Shown: positions 32,014 to 39,660 of the stretch, piece by piece
Layout: each line of letters opens with the position of its first letter
How positions within the stretch are numbered: the first letter of the stretch is position 1
Assembly: GCA_902777125.1 (NCBI GenBank)
Contig: CACYSQ010000006.1
Coordinates: forward strand, 124,001-188,000
Direction: 5' to 3'
Length of the DNA: 64,000 nucleotides
From: Ruminococcus flavefaciens
Lineage (GTDB): Bacteria > Bacillota > Clostridia > Oscillospirales > Ruminococcaceae
Notes under the pieces: model-generated
The model's database searches: none
Seen by the model: the letters and a program-made list of their open reading frames with translations, nothing else
What the model was told of the DNA's origin: nothing
Translations under genes and position numbers: made by a program

Positions 32014-32424
32014 CTATTTGAAATGCTTCTGCGATACCTTCAGACGGTTCATTGCGCGGTTGAGAGCAGCCTGAGTCTGGTAATACTCCTTGATGCTCTG
32101 CTTCTGACGGAGACGTTCCTGAGCGCGTTCACGGGCTTCCTCGGCACGTTTTATGTCGATCTCCTCCGGCAGCTCGCAGTTATCCGCGAGAATTATCGAG
32201 GATTCGGGCATTACCTGTATGAAACCGCCTGATATAGCCGCATAGTGCCACTTGCCGTCCACCATGTATTTCAGCTCTCCGGCAGGGAGAGTGGTCACGA
32301 CAGGCTCATGGCCTGCCATGATGCCGACAAGACCGTCTATAGCCGTAATTACAAGGTGCTCGCAGTCGCCCTTGTAGAAAATGCGGTCTGTAGCGATTAT
32401 TTCAAGGTGAAATTTCCTCGGCAT
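32014..32424 (-). CDS. atpC: ATP synthase epsilon subunit
   Basis: This 136-residue protein has the N-terminal beta-barrel with GDCEHLVITAIDGLVGIMAGHEP and AELPEEI-like motifs, then the helical hairpin with KRAEEARERAQERL. Epsilon sits on the central stalk and inhibits hydrolysis. It is the last gene of the operon, 4 bp after atpD. Confidence 0.96.
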   Translation of the reverse strand: MPRKFHLEIIATDRIFYKGDCEHLVITAIDGLVGIMAGHEPVVTTLPAGELKYMVDGKWHYAAISGGFIQVMPESSIILADNCELPEEIDIKRAEEARERAQERLRQKQSIKEYYQTQAALNRAMNRLKVSQKHFK

Positions 32425-32428
32425 AGTA

Positions 32429-33960
<1,532 letters not shown>

Positions 33961-33962
33961 GG

Positions 33963-34355
33963 TTATATGAGGCTTTCTCCCTCTCCCATGACCGCGATAT
34001 CGACCGCCTTGGCGTCCTCAAGGTGGAAGGTCATGAGCTTATTGCCGGTCTTTTCGCCGTATATAGCCTCAAGTCCTGCATTTTTTATAATGGTCTGAGC
34101 ATATTTCTCATCGGTCTCGAAAACAGCTTTACCGGTGTATCTGAGCCAGTGACCGTCCGGCTTGCAGGCAGCGATCTCAACGAGTGGATTGGCGCAGAGC
34201 TGTCTGTAGACCGCCTTGAAATCACCGACGCCGAAGATTATCTTGCCGTCCTCTTCGAGAAAAGCGCCGAGCGGACGGAGCTTTGGCTGATCGCCGTCTG
34301 TAGTTGCGAGGAAGAATACACCTGTTTCCTTTAAGAAGTCGCCTATTTTGCTCAT
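33963..34355 (-). CDS. Pyridoxamine 5'-phosphate oxidase-fold (flavin-binding) protein inside the atp operon
   Basis: The ATG behind AGGAGT at 34355 gives 130 residues. The split-barrel pattern is clear: FLATTDGDQPKLRPLGAFLEEDGKIIFGVG, then NPLVEIAACKPDGHWLRYTGKAVFETD. Such proteins bind FMN or F420-like cofactors; the catalytic role cannot be told. It is flanked by a GTAG-foot palindrome upstream and a hairpin-rich spacer downstream, which suggests an insertion between atpG and atpD. Confidence 0.85.
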   Translation of the reverse strand: MSKIGDFLKETGVFFLATTDGDQPKLRPLGAFLEEDGKIIFGVGDFKAVYRQLCANPLVEIAACKPDGHWLRYTGKAVFETDEKYAQTIIKNAGLEAIYGEKTGNKLMTFHLEDAKAVDIAVMGEGESLI

Positions 34356-34381
34356 AATAACACTCCTTTTGCCGTTCATCT

Positions 34382-34459: not shown

Positions 34460-35356
34460 TCAATCGTTGACGGAAGCCGCACCTCCGCAGACCTCGGTTA
34501 TCTCCTGAGTGATAGCCGCCTGTCTTGCGCGGTTGTAGAGAAGTGAAAGGTCCTTTATCATGTCCTTTGCACTGTTGGTGGCAGCGTCCATAGCCGTCAT
34601 TCGCGACTGCTGCTCACAGCAGAACGCCTCGACCATAGCGCCGTATATAACGCCCTTGGCGTAGTTGGGTATGAGGTTTTCCATTACGACCTCCGGCGAG
34701 GGCAGGAACGAAGCCTTCGGGAGCTTCTTAATCGTGCCGTCGGGAGCCTTTCCGAAGTGTCTGCGCTCGAACGGGAGAAGTCTTAGCTTGCGGGGCTCCT
34801 GAACGTTAGATGTGACCATGTCGGTATATATGAGGTAGACCTCATCGAGCTCGCCAGCCTCGAACTTATCGAGGACGAGCTGTGCTATCTCCATAGCGCG
34901 GTAGAGAGTCGGGTTCTGGGTAGTGTAGAGGAATTCGCTGTCAACGGAGGTCTTTCTGCGGTTCTGGAAGTACATTCTCCCGACCTGTCCCATAACAAAG
35001 AGCTGACAGTTATCGAGGTTAGCCTGCTCTGAGAGCTCCTGTTCGGTAAAGCGGAGGACGTTATGGTTATAGCTCCCGCACAGACCCTTATCGGCGGTAA
35101 TGACGATATATCCCTTTTTGCGGTTCTCCTCAGCGATACCGGAACGGCGGTCGAAGTAGAACTGTCTTGTGTGGGGGGTATGCTCGAGGATACTGTCGAT
35201 AGTTTCCTGCAATTTATAGAAGTAGGGCTCAGTGTCCTCGAGGGATTTACGCGCTTTTTTGAGCTTTGACGAGGACATGAGGTACATAGCGTTCGTTATC
35301 TTGAGTATCTGCTTGATACTGTTGATACGCTCGCGTATTTCTCTTATATTAGCCAT
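34460..35356 (-). CDS. atpG: ATP synthase gamma subunit
   Basis: This 298-residue protein has the N-terminal IREIRERINSIKQILKITNAM helix, ITADKGLCGSYN and the C-terminal helix with AMDAATNSAKDMI..L.L.YNRARQAAITQEITEV. Gamma is the rotor shaft of F1. It follows the delta-alpha fusion gene by 3 bp. Confidence 0.97.
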   Translation of the reverse strand: MANIREIRERINSIKQILKITNAMYLMSSSKLKKARKSLEDTEPYFYKLQETIDSILEHTPHTRQFYFDRRSGIAEENRKKGYIVITADKGLCGSYNHNVLRFTEQELSEQANLDNCQLFVMGQVGRMYFQNRRKTSVDSEFLYTTQNPTLYRAMEIAQLVLDKFEAGELDEVYLIYTDMVTSNVQEPRKLRLLPFERRHFGKAPDGTIKKLPKASFLPSPEVVMENLIPNYAKGVIYGAMVEAFCCEQQSRMTAMDAATNSAKDMIKDLSLLYNRARQAAITQEITEVCGGAASVND

Positions 35357-35359
35357 GAT

Positions 35360-37381
35360 TTATTCCTCAAAGGCAGTGACGATACGCTCGATACGCTCAG
35401 CGAGGTCGTCCGTGAGGACCTTCTTCTCCTCTATCTCCTCGATGATATCCTGACCGTAGGTGCGGATATAGTTCATCAGCTCGGTACGGTATTCGCGCAG
35501 CTCCTTGAGCGGAATGCCCTTGAACAGGTCATGCTGAGCGGCATAGAGGAGAATCACCTGCTCATAGTGCGGAAGCGGATTGTAGAGGGGCTGTTTCAGC
35601 AGCTCTGTGAGCATATGACCGTGGTCGAGGAGGTCAGTGGTAGCCTGATCGAGCTCGGACGAGAACTGAGTGAATATCTCCATTTCCTTGAACTGTGCAA
35701 GGTCGATACGGAGGTTTCCGGCAGCCTTTTTCATAGCCTTTGTCTGAGCGGCACCGCCTACACGCGAAACGGAAAGACCGTAGTTAACGGCAGGTCTGAG
35801 ACCGGAGTTGAAAAGCTCGCTCTCGAGGAATATCTGACCGTCGGTGATAGATATAACGTTTGTCGGGATATAGGCGGAGATATCTCCGGCGAGAGTCTCT
35901 ATGATAGGCAGAGCTGTCAGCGAACCGCCGCCGTGCTCATCATCGAGACGGCTCGAACGTTCGAGAAGTCTCGAATGGAGGTAGAAAACATCGCCGGGGT
36001 AAGCCTCACGTCCCGGAGGGCGGTGCAGCAGCAGTGACATTGCACGGTAAGCTACAGCGTGTTTGGAGAGGTCGTCGTAAACGATAAGAACGTCCCTGCC
36101 CTTAGCCATGAAGTATTCAGCCATAGCCGTACCGGAATAGGGGGCGATGTACTGGAAGGGCGCCGGGTCGCTCGCAGAAGCGCACACAACAATGGAATAG
36201 TCCATAGCGCCGTACTTTTTGAGGGTATTGACGACCTGAGCAACGGTCGAGGACTTCTGACCTATGGCAACATAGATGCAGATCATGTCCTTGTCCTTCT
36301 GGTTGATGATAGTATCGAGTGCGATAGAGGTCTTACCGGTCTGACGGTCGCCGATGATGAGCTCACGCTGACCGCGTCCTATCGGGAACATTGAGTCTAT
36401 CGCAAGGATACCTGTCTGTAACGGCACGTTTACGGGCTTACGCTCGATAACGCCGGGAGCCTCACGCTCAATGGGGAAGTAGTCCTCCGCCTTGATAGAG
36501 CCGAGACCGTCTATGGGAGCGCCGAGTGCGTCAACGACTCTGCCGAGGAGCTCATCGCTCACGCCTACACCGGCACGTTTGCCTGTTCTGATGACGGAGG
36601 AGCCCTCCGTGAGACCGTGGTCGTCACCGAGAAGAACTACGCCTACGGAGTTTTCCTCAAGGTTCTGGACGATGCCTCTGATGCCTGTCTCGAATTCGAC
36701 AAGCTCGCCGTACATAACAGCGTTCATGCCTCTGACTGTCGCGATACCGTCGCCGATACGGGTTATGAAGCCCGTTTCGGTAGCACCGGAACGCACATCG
36801 AAGTCCCTGACCTCTGTTCTGAGGACGGAGATGATGTCGCCGTGAGTATCAGAGGTATCACGCTCTGCAAGCTCGGCAGCCTTTCCGTGGAGTGTCTCCC
36901 TGAGAGCGCGGAGGCTTGTACGGTAGCTCTTGTCGTACTCAACATCGCCTGCATTGAGGATAAAACCGCCTATGATATCGGGATCCTGAATGTACTCGAT
37001 AGAAACGTCGTTCTTACCGAATTTTTCGATTATGAATTTTCTGAGATCAGCCTGCTGGAGCTCGGTAAGGGGCGTAACATAGCGGACTGAAGCTCTGATA
37101 CTGCCCTCCTGTTCGATGAGGAAGTCAGTGTAGAGCTCCATTATCTCGGGGAGTTTCTCCACGAGACCGCTGCGGACAGCGCTCATCAGTGGCTTCTGCA
37201 TACTCTCCGGGAAGAGCTTTGCTATAACGGCTTTCTTTTCCTCGTGGGTAACGAGGGGGTTGCCGAGGGTATCGGAAACGTCTCCGCAAGATGCGAGAAC
37301 AGCGGAGGTCTCATTGATATCAGCCTGCGGTATCTTAGCGCTTTTCAGCTCATCAAGGAGCAGTTTTTCCTTGTCATTCAC
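35360..37381 (-). CDS. atpHA: Fused ATP synthase delta-alpha subunit
   Basis: One uninterrupted frame encodes 673 residues. Residues about 1-175 match the delta (OSCP) subunit from its second helix on, with [14 protein letters not shown], a helix ending [20 protein letters not shown] and [14 protein letters not shown]. Residues from about 183 match a complete alpha subunit: EISxxL-type start [16 protein letters not shown]-like [11 protein letters not shown], Walker [10 protein letters not shown] and the alpha signature [17 protein letters not shown]. Delta normally crowns alpha N-termini at the top of F1, so a fusion places both parts where they already meet. The first delta helix seems to be missing (about 20 residues). 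It overlaps atpF by 4 bp. No stop or frameshift was seen at the joint. Confidence 0.93.
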
Positions 37382-37869
37382 CTGCCGATCCCCTCCTCTT
37401 CCTCGAGGAACTTGTCAACAAGACGGCGGTTCTTTTCATCGTCAACGTTTTCGCCGATTATCCTTGAAGCAGCCTCAACAGCGAGGTCAGCGATCTGGGT
37501 CTGAGCCTGTGCGAGAACGCGCTTGCGTTCATTCTCGATAGTTTTTCCGGCGTCGGCAACGATGCGTTCCGCCTCCTCCTGAGACCTCTTGATGATAGCG
37601 GCACGTTCGGTCTCAGCGTCCTCATGGGCCTTGTCGATGATCTTCTGAGCCTCGTCCTTAGCGGAGCCGAGCTCATTGTCGTACTGTTCCCTGAGCTGTT
37701 CAGCCTCCTCGCGGTTTTTTTTGGCGGAATCGAGCTCGTCCTGCACCATCTGAGTGCGTTTCTCCATCATCTTCCTTATGGGCTTAAAGAGGAAGATCTT
37801 CATAAGTATCAGCAGCAGGATAAGGTTTATGCCTGCCCAGATGAAATTCCATATATTAATATCCAGCAT
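37378..37869 (-). CDS. atpF: ATP synthase b subunit
   Basis: This 163-residue protein has an N-terminal membrane segment (about 5-25) and a long charged coiled-coil (30-130, rich in Glu/Lys/Ala), then [20 protein letters not shown] near the end. It forms the outer stalk. It overlaps the delta-alpha fusion gene by ATGA. Between it and atpE lies a 119-bp palindrome. Confidence 0.95.
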
Positions 37870-38150: not shown

Positions 38151-38372
38151 TTATTTGAGGAACAGGATAATGAGGATAGCGATAACGAAGCCGTAGATAG
38201 CGGTCGCCTCAGCGAGGGCACAACCGAGAAGGAGCGCCTTGTTGATATCGCCCTTTGCTTCAGGCTGACGGGCGATAGCCTCAGCAGCCTTAGATGTTGC
38301 TATACCTATACCTATACCTGCGCCAAGTCCGGTGAGAACAGCCAGACCTGCACCTATTGCCAAAAGTCCCAT
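38151..38372 (-). CDS. atpE: ATP synthase c subunit
   Basis: The ATG at 38372, behind GGAGGT, gives 73 residues; a TTG five codons upstream would put the ribosome site inside the gene. Two membrane helices are joined by the polar loop ARQPEAKGD. The ion-binding carboxylate is in helix 2 (AEATAIYGFVIA). The c-ring turns with ion flow. Compared with Na+-type c subunits, Thr and Tyr of ET..Y are kept, but the helix-1 Gln is replaced by Ile and Ser after Glu by Ala, which points to H+. Confidence 0.97.
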   Translation of the reverse strand: MGLLAIGAGLAVLTGLGAGIGIGIATSKAAEAIARQPEAKGDINKALLLGCALAEATAIYGFVIAILIILFLK

Positions 38373-38387
38373 AATATTGACCTCCAA

Positions 38388-38503: not shown

Positions 38504-39193
38504 TTATTCCTCCTCCATAGCCTCGGACATAAAGAGCGAGGTGAGGAATACGAATACATATGCCTGTATCGCGCCGTCAAACACATCGAAGTAGAAGCTG
38601 AATGCGAGCGGTACGCCGACCGGTACAAGGAGCTTTATGAACTCCATGATGACGAAAGCACCGAGAACGTTTCCGAAAAGTCGCATACAGAGCGAAAGCG
38701 GCTTGATAACGAGCTCCATGAGATTGAGCGGGAGCATGAAAGCCATAGGCTCGCAGAAGCCCTTCAGCCATTTTCTCACGCCCTTCTGCCTGATACCGCT
38801 GTACTGTATCAGGAGTATCGCGAATATCGCGAGCGTTGCGGTAACGCCGAGATCCTTTGTCGGGGGTCTTAGACCTACCAGACCTATAAGGTTTGATATA
38901 CCGATATACAGCAGCAGCGTTTCGAGTATGGGGAGGTATTTTTTCCCCTTGCTGCCGAGTATCTCGAGGAAGAAGTTATCCATCCAGAGCACGAAGCTCT
39001 CGACAAGGCACTGGAAGCCCGTCGGCACTACCTTCATTCTCTTTGTGAATATAATGGAGCCGATGACCAGAAGTCCCATGATGAACCATGTCATGACGCA
39101 GGACTCCGGAACGGGTATCCCTCCGAATACAGGTATTGTAAAGGACGTCCGGCACTCAAGCTCTTCCATGAGCTTGTCTGCAAGATCACCCAT
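38504..39193 (-). CDS. atpB: ATP synthase a subunit
   Basis: The ATG at 39193, behind AAGGTGGG, gives 229 residues; an upstream GTG lies within the ribosome site. It is a multi-span protein with the essential Arg in the helix SLCMRLFGNVLGAF and a C-terminal hydrophobic block ending QAYVFVFLTSLFMSEAMEEE. It forms the ion half-channels facing the c-ring. It is the first Fo gene behind the operon promoter. Confidence 0.95.
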   Translation of the reverse strand: MGDLADKLMEELECRTSFTIPVFGGIPVPESCVMTWFIMGLLVIGSIIFTKRMKVVPTGFQCLVESFVLWMDNFFLEILGSKGKKYLPILETLLLYIGISNLIGLVGLRPPTKDLGVTATLAIFAILLIQYSGIRQKGVRKWLKGFCEPMAFMLPLNLMELVIKPLSLCMRLFGNVLGAFVIMEFIKLLVPVGVPLAFSFYFDVFDGAIQAYVFVFLTSLFMSEAMEEE

Positions 39194-39237
39194 TTTCCCA
39201 CCTTCTTTCACGAATGTGAATTTGATCCTATATGATA

Positions 39238-39327: not shown

Positions 39328-39660
39328 TTATGAATTTTCCTCCGCGAGCCTGAGTGCATTACTGAGGCGTTCGATAGTACCGGAATTGAGCTTTTCCGAG
39401 AGCCTTACCCTGTCGAGCTCCTTCTTGAAAGCGGAAAGCTCCTTTGCGATAGCCTGCAAAGCCTCCTCACTGCGGTTCTGACGTTCCTCCAGTGAAGCGA
39501 TGCGGTCTCCGAGAGCCGCGATAGCCTCTGCGAGAAGCTCGTTGGCTTCATTCTGACGTTCGCCGAAGTCCGTGAGCTTGGCGGCAGCTTTCAGAGCGCT
39601 TATCTTTTCGTGGCCGTCGAAGGTCACGAGCTTTTTCTTATTCAGCCCTGTATCAGCCAT
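39328..39660 (-). CDS. Small coiled-coil protein
   Basis: This 110-residue protein is hydrophilic, with a continuous heptad-rich stretch (about residues 45-108: LLAEAIAALGDRIASLEERQNRSEEALQ...). It has no membrane segment, so it is not AtpI. It is just upstream of the atp operon promoter and downstream of a lipoprotein gene, with 30 bp between. No family is recognised. Confidence 0.65.
   Translation of the reverse strand: MADTGLNKKKLVTFDGHEKISALKAAAKLTDFGERQNEANELLAEAIAALGDRIASLEERQNRSEEALQAIAKELSAFKKELDRVRLSEKLNSGTIERLSNALRLAEENS

Follow-up and report, generated by a model that had tools for sequence, protein, structure and literature searches.

The window, that is, the whole stretch of 64,000 nucleotides of Ruminococcus flavefaciens DNA analyzed here, carries a complete F-type atp operon on the minus strand, in which the genes for subunits a, c and b are followed by a single frame for delta and alpha and then by gamma, a small pyridoxamine-oxidase-like frame, beta and epsilon (Table 1). 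The initial annotation had described delta and alpha as joined in one polypeptide of 673 residues, and this is borne out by the uninterrupted open reading frame, which starts with GTG, and by the family matches along it: PF00213 (OSCP/delta) covers residues 20-164 (89.8 bits, cut-off 22.3), the alpha domains PF02874, PF00006 and PF00306 cover residues 203-671, and TIGR00962 (atpA) covers residues 180-672 (765.1 bits, cut-off 484.45). Membership in the N-ATPases was rejected, as TIGR03324 scores 621.8 bits against a cut-off of 750.5 and delta is present. The delta/OSCP of the window is not encoded as a separate polypeptide, lying as it does in the same frame as alpha, and no OSCP match besides the fusion was obtained in the window genome at E 0.001. 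The operon has single genes for a and b. Its c gene is likewise single; among loci L115-L194, the 74 Ruminococcus loci with enough upstream sequence contain a tandem pair of c genes in 46 cases and a single one in 28. The genome also encodes the A subunit of a V/A-type ATPase, and the F-type enzyme may therefore not be its main ATPase.

Table 1. Genes and sequence features of the atp operon (window positions; residue numbers refer to the fusion protein).
Feature	Position	Strand	Basis
Delta-alpha fusion gene (atpH-atpA, one frame), 673 aa, GTG start	35360..37381	-	ORF, Pfam, NCBIfam
Shine-Dalgarno AGGAGG, 10 bases upstream of GTG, within the end of atpF	37392..37397	-	sequence reading
Delta N-terminal domain (NTD), residues 1-95, six predicted helices	37097..37381	-	alignment, AlphaFold2
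Delta C-terminal domain, residues 96-166	36884..37096	-	Pfam, alignment, AlphaFold2, PDB matches
Linker, residues 167-181	36839..36883	-	alignment, model
Alpha N-terminal helix region, residues 182-202, strongly conserved	36776..36838	-	alignment, model
Alpha body, residues 203-673 (barrel, nucleotide-binding, C-terminal domains)	35363..36775	-	Pfam, NCBIfam
atpF, subunit b, 163 aa, separate gene, 4-base overlap with fusion start	37378..37869	-	ORF, Pfam
atpE, subunit c	38151..38387	-	ORF, Pfam
atpB, subunit a	38504..39211	-	ORF, Pfam
atpG, subunit gamma	34460..35356	-	ORF, Pfam
atpD, subunit beta	32429..33841	-	ORF, Pfam
atpC, subunit epsilon	32014..32424	-	ORF, Pfam
Pyridoxamine 5'-phosphate oxidase-like frame, between gamma and beta	33963..34379	-	Pfam
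110-residue frame preceding atpB	39328..39660

The pyridoxamine 5'-phosphate oxidase-like frame matches PF01243 with 37.4 bits (cut-off 28.1), and a similar frame is present in 8 of 71 named loci. The frame of 110 residues occupies the position expected for AtpI and has a counterpart in all eight same-genus operons compared (L029-L036); it matches no Pfam family over cut-off and no NCBIfam family.

In the initial annotation the delta part was thought to lack its first helix. This is not borne out, as AlphaFold2 models of the full-length protein and of delta alone both give six NTD helices, with helix 1 formed by residues 2-13/14 in either model. The model of delta alone (mean pLDDT 80.5) places the helices at residues 2-13, 18-30, 32-38, 45-55, 58-69 and 73-90 and continues with a C-terminal domain of the order strand-helix-strand-strand-strand-helix, which is the arrangement of a six-helix NTD and a beta-alpha C-terminal domain expected of delta/OSCP. 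Helix 1 is thus predicted to be short and diverged, and present; the Pfam match begins late because the helix no longer resembles the family there, and an NTD profile built from 22 separate deltas finds the NTD of the window at 5e-07 from the start of helix 2 onward. According to the alignment, residues missing relative to separate deltas fall mainly after helix 1 and around helix 4/5. Each of the 44 PDB fold matches with an E-value of up to 0.001 belongs to an ATP synthase entry, and those identified by name are delta, OSCP or b-delta; full-length matches have TM-scores of only about 0.3-0.55, which we attribute to domain orientation. In the full-length model the NTD reaches a pLDDT of about 83 and the alpha part is poor. 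By analogy with known alphas, residues 182-202 probably form the N-terminal helix of alpha, in a region where the structure model is of low confidence. The C-terminal domain of delta is the b2-binding domain in known enzymes.

The fusion in Ruminococcus and architectures among wider relatives

Searching relatives for the join, as had been suggested with the initial annotation, revealed it in 32 of 35 genomes of the same genus, where the fused frame comprises 671-699 codons in 31 cases and 577 in one (G033). Among the remaining three, G016 has a separate delta only and G017 and G022, which are 82% and 64% complete, have no delta match; G021 and G034 encode both a fused and a separate delta. In a scan of named genomes, delta and alpha were fused in all 80 loci, a count that is biased towards window-like fusions because the scan ranked 325 relatives by their match to the delta of the window and retained the best 80. 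Again, one frame is short (L134, 577). The label Ruminococcus is carried by 75 of these loci, including those of the cultured R. flavefaciens strains FD-1, 007c, ATCC 19208 and MC2020, and two loci labelled Alistipes we take to be misnamed bins. The nearest named relative, L115, is 90% identical to the window in delta. The lengths of the NTD (95 residues) and of the delta C-terminal domain (71 residues) are fixed in all 80 aligned fusions. A sequencing or assembly error that hides a stop and a start at the joint is ruled out for practical purposes, with a probability that we regard as negligible, because the same join recurs in these genomes and loci, which stem from many isolates and metagenomes, with constant domain lengths. 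The join is therefore real and conserved, and the oddity for subunit stoichiometry to which the initial annotation had drawn attention persists. Two irregularities were observed along the way: in strain FD-1 the fusion gene occurs DNA-identical on two contigs (L151, L152), either as a repeat or through assembly doubling, and in L033 (G021) the beta gene beside the fusion is split into two frames of 314 and 169 codons, which may be real or an assembly fault.

Relatives beyond the genus were chosen by frame length and score and do not constitute a random sample. Among 245 genomes of the order, 112 contain an alpha over cut-off, in 35 cases within a frame of 579-781 codons; 34 of these long frames were read, and in the remaining one (G028) delta is matched within the frame of alpha. 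The class sample (391 genomes) yielded at least 30 further stop-free frames of at least 570 codons, 19 of which were read, and the phylum sample (299 genomes) at least five such frames outside the class, of which five were read. All 63 fused extensions analyzed match a profile of the delta C-terminal domain at a threshold of 0.01, and 61 still do so at 0.001; the NTD profile picks out exactly the 15 that are labelled NTD-retaining. NTD and C-terminal domain together are fused to alpha in Ruminococcus and also in L037, L041, L081, L083, L089 and L090, and the C-terminal domain alone in 40 of the 63 extensions. L043 has two tandem delta C-terminal domains ahead of alpha, recognizable as two Pfam stretches. 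In seven loci (L024, L025, L046, L048, L049, L050, L056) a b-type N terminus with a hydrophobic stretch, a delta C-terminal domain and alpha form a triple fusion of about 740 residues; PF00430 is over cut-off in three of four tested and PF00213 in all four. These loci also carry a separate b gene, and six of the seven genomes, one of which (G200) is 62% complete, have no other alpha over cut-off. Viral contigs were considered as a source of the triple fusions and discarded, as none of 40 pattern matches was a relative. In the triple-fusion loci, the place of epsilon after beta is taken by a short frame of 90-131 codons, which matches the epsilon of the window in L046 only. Finally, separate deltas of 73-78 residues that consist of the C-terminal domain only precede alpha in L059, L065, L066, L069, L072 and L074, six loci recognized by their frames, two of which were run against Pfam.

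Some of these loci show further peculiarities. In L061, L063, L084 and L085 (G111, G165, G525, G403), which also hold a delta-alpha fusion, gamma and beta share a single open frame (795-802 codons) that no stop interrupts, and an in-frame start codon, ATG or GTG, lies ahead of beta together with a purine-rich stretch. As a fusion of rotor and stator such a frame would be very odd; rotation is reported to persist when the gamma C terminus is cross-linked (PMC3536650). Many loci with NTD-less fusions (L028, L038, L039, L052, L080 and others) contain c subunits with long N-terminal extensions, in frames of 110-191 codons, and a subunits that match weakly.

Order of events and divergence of the fused domains

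A quick tree without bootstrap was calculated for 96 alphas, 63 rows of which are fused and 33 not, using architecture labels that we assigned; among the rows assigned to the separate-delta group, L070 comes from a short contig on which no delta was read, L073 has an odd delta of 161 aa, and in L102 a frame of 240 aa was matched to delta. On this tree at least nine changes between fused and not fused are required, and a single origin of all delta-alpha fusions, with the 63 fused rows forced into one clade, is rejected (p 1.9e-09). The triple fusions form their own clade with a support of 100, outside the largest fused group of 46 rows. NTD-less fusions from outside the window's class but within the phylum (L097-L100) do not group with the window's clade either. 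Within the group of 46, Ruminococcus and L089/L090 stand outside a starred fork (96) of 35 rows, which contains every remaining row of the group with a C-terminal-domain, tandem or near-deltaless architecture (30 rows) and, in addition, the NTD-retaining L041, L037, L081 and L083 and the separate short delta of L096. Inside this fork, 29 NTD-less rows are held together with a support of 89, and the NTD-less L058, on a long branch, falls just outside. Several inner forks of the tree have SH-aLRT values below 95. Placing the 15 NTD-retaining rows in one clade is rejected with an AU p of 0.021, a modest value. From the alpha tree it appears likely that fusion came first and that the NTD was lost later. 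As the NTD-retaining rows are placed mostly outside the NTD-less group, the fusion of the window looks like an intermediate stage, in which delta is already covalently attached and the NTD is still kept.

The domains of the fusion evolve at different rates. Across 325 sequence pairs, which are not independent and were drawn from 80 of 81 sequences (one was left out for length), dN/dS was lowest in alpha (0.045 in the N helix, 0.047 in the body), reached 0.078 in the delta C-terminal domain and 0.18 in the NTD, and was highest in the linker (0.26). The ratio of NTD to C-terminal-domain divergence amounted to 2.32 in Ruminococcus fusions (21 pairs of seven sequences) and to 1.05 in separate deltas (25 pairs with an alpha identity of at least 0.75; 1.07 for all 231 pairs). 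At alpha identities of 0.84-0.92 the ranges of NTD identity overlap (0.31-0.54 in separate, 0.40-0.60 in fused deltas), and C-terminal-domain identity is 0.73-0.86 in fused versus 0.41-0.55 in separate deltas, a comparison in which the separate-delta pairs are few, related and non-independent, with one near an alpha identity of 0.92. The idea of a decaying NTD finds no support in these values, as the domain is under purifying selection and its degree of conservation is close to that in the separate deltas compared.

The joint, assembly of the enzyme and comparison with known systems

The linker between delta and alpha measures 13-21 residues and varies within the genus. It is hydrophilic, lies in a stretch of very low AlphaFold2 confidence and, in the aligned Ruminococcus fusions, no shared motif was seen. 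An internal ribosome site near position 36835, which the initial annotation had considered as a source of free alpha, is unsupported. Start codons at the joint were surveyed in 75 of 81 sequences (80 loci and the window), the other six being left out because the landmark pattern did not fit; the survey covered ATG, GTG and TTG. No in-frame codon of these three within 20 codons of the alpha start was common to more than 12 of the 75 sequences. In the same interval, nine single instances have a Shine-Dalgarno match of at least five bases, five of them at codon +14. Two ATGs that are common to all 75 sequences lie 37 and 41 codons downstream and are preceded by a ribosome-binding match in one and in no sequence, respectively. 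The native start has a match of at least five bases in 74 of 75 sequences, a figure that is favoured by the choice of the native start as the best-matching start codon in the first 40 codons. Around the start of alpha, matches of this length occur in 18 of the 26 loci that bear the separate-delta label and in five of six with a separate C-terminal-domain delta, versus none of the 15 NTD-retaining, 7 of the 40 C-terminal-domain and one of the seven triple fusions. Taken together, the variable linker without a visible shared motif and the start codons surveyed therefore support neither internal starts nor a conserved cleavage site.

F-type ATP synthases have, as a textbook rule, one peripheral stalk. 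The assembly towards which we lean with modest confidence is that of an inherited, working F1Fo subunit that is made as one uncleaved chain, so that the catalytic head would be (delta-alpha)3 beta3 gamma epsilon and contain three delta domains, as compared to one in other enzymes. The delta C-terminal domain of each chain would pack on its own alpha and provide a potential docking site for a b2 stalk, and all three of these domains are probably usable. The three-fold axis offers one position atop the head, which a single NTD would fill while the remaining two hang aside, and relatives would have moved on from this NTD-keeping stage to the loss of the domain. This account as a whole is weakened by the separate delta of G016, the V/A-type ATPase subunit in the genome, the modest AU value, the position of L058 and L096 among NTD-retaining rows, the small set of separate-delta pairs and the poor model of alpha.

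Ueno et al. (2025) fused the C-terminal domain of delta to alpha in Bacillus PS3, and the relevant passages of their article report that the engineered enzyme assembles and works with up to three stalks, about two on average, that its H+/ATP ratio is 5.8, and that breaking the one-stalk rule doubles this ratio; the authors argue that the NTD is what ordinarily keeps the number of stalks at one (PMC12229609). The delta C-terminal domains of the engineered enzyme bind b2 stalks in the normal way. The engineered enzyme has no NTD and therefore does not show that three NTD-bearing chains fit one head. The Ruminococcus enzyme may have one stalk by virtue of the kept NTD or several by virtue of one site per alpha; it is quite possible, and we would stop just short of calling it probable, that the average number in the species of the window exceeds one. 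That nearly every head bears two to three full b2 stalks, each with its a subunit, and that the H+/ATP ratio is raised, is a more extreme version that we hold to be unlikely: the PS3 enzyme provides a precedent and the higher conservation of the fused C-terminal domain would fit the use of several copies, but the window keeps the very domain argued to limit stalks to one (PMC12229609), this domain has a constant length and is under purifying selection, and the operon offers single a and b genes.

Two other explanations would reconcile the fusion with known numbers. The fused chain could be a precursor whose linker is cut by a protease, after which a normal enzyme with one delta forms and surplus delta is degraded. 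Known stoichiometry would be restored in this way, and a hydrophilic linker with very low model confidence could indeed be cut; yet the linker has no conserved motif or length, the loss of the NTD and the fusion of b in front in relatives would be left unexplained, and conservation of the C-terminal domain is higher in the fusions than in those separate deltas that were compared, which makes cleavage distinctly improbable in our view. Alternatively, internal starts could give mostly free alpha and some fused chains, such that each enzyme contains one fused and two free alphas. Here, too, the numbers come out right, and one may point to those C-terminal-domain fusions that have a start codon and a five-base ribosome-binding match near the alpha start and to the start with its purine-rich stretch before beta in the four relatives with a gamma-beta frame. 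We nevertheless consider this highly improbable given the lack of a widely shared ATG, GTG or TTG at the joint in the 75 sequences surveyed and the distribution of five-base matches, which are found in most loci labelled separate and are absent, or present once, in NTD-retaining and triple fusions.

If the chain stays whole, as in our preferred reading, every head in Ruminococcus would contain three deltas, each with an NTD, and the enzyme would be a natural test of the claim that the NTD limits the number of stalks. The cultured strains FD-1, 007c and ATCC 19208 carry the fusion, which makes the number of stalks, the H+/ATP ratio and the function of the NTD accessible to measurement in a natural enzyme. 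Judging from the relatives, delta-alpha joins could give rise to enzymes that have several side supports where one is usual. In the triple fusion each alpha would be tied to its own membrane anchor, and three membrane-anchored stalks would follow if the chain is uncut. The series that runs from separate delta via delta fused with NTD, fused without it and in tandem to the b-delta-alpha form would document the rewriting of a fixed stoichiometry in a nearly universal machine. More generally, and tentatively, many Clostridia and their kin may have repeatedly turned delta into a domain of alpha, some of them arriving at natural multi-stalk enzymes, with the window representing a surviving intermediate that keeps the symmetry-breaking NTD; we regard this as possible and somewhat doubtful.

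The initial annotation had called the delta-alpha fusion an unfamiliar form, and this holds in part. Natural NTD-less fusions have been published, the relevant passages noting those of Acidaminococcus fermentans, UniProt G4Q3K6 and A0A1I2C5T3 (PMC12229609); for a natural fusion that retains the NTD we found no report in the open-licence literature. Delta-alpha fusions do not appear in the relevant passages of PMC5706428, PMC5709465 and PMC6131620, and none of the terms sought occurs in the text of PMC10656485. The phrase "probably misannotated as part of ATPF1A" in PMC4154653 was considered as a reference to delta and dismissed, as the mark in the table concerned (Table 2) refers to subunit b of one N-ATPase. 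Neither triple b-delta-alpha nor tandem delta forms were met in the open-licence literature searched for delta-alpha fusions.

Among known systems, the mycobacterial b-delta fusion, which is present in one copy per enzyme, resembles the window in that delta is covalently tied to another stator subunit. There (PDB 7jg5, 9vkp and others), delta sits on b and alpha is free, whereas atpF is a separate gene in the window. In ordinary enzymes (PDB 6n2y and others) delta/OSCP and alpha are encoded by two genes, with one delta for three alphas; both domains of the fusion are recognizable members of these families. In a comparison by sequence, the engineered PS3 fusion (PDB 9jc1) ranks second among the PDB matches of the window protein, with chain 9jc1_I aligning over residues 100-667; by fold it is a weak match. 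As far as the description of its construction goes, it shares with the window the attachment of the delta C terminus to the alpha N terminus by a short linker and the presence of one delta C-terminal domain per alpha, and it differs in being devoid of residues 2-104, that is, the NTD, and of the epsilon C-terminal domain. Compared by published description only, the proteins of Acidaminococcus fermentans, G4Q3K6 and A0A1I2C5T3 are, like that of the window, natural delta-alpha fusions; in these the NTD is missing, whereas the fusion in the window has joined the delta C-terminal domain to alpha and kept the NTD.
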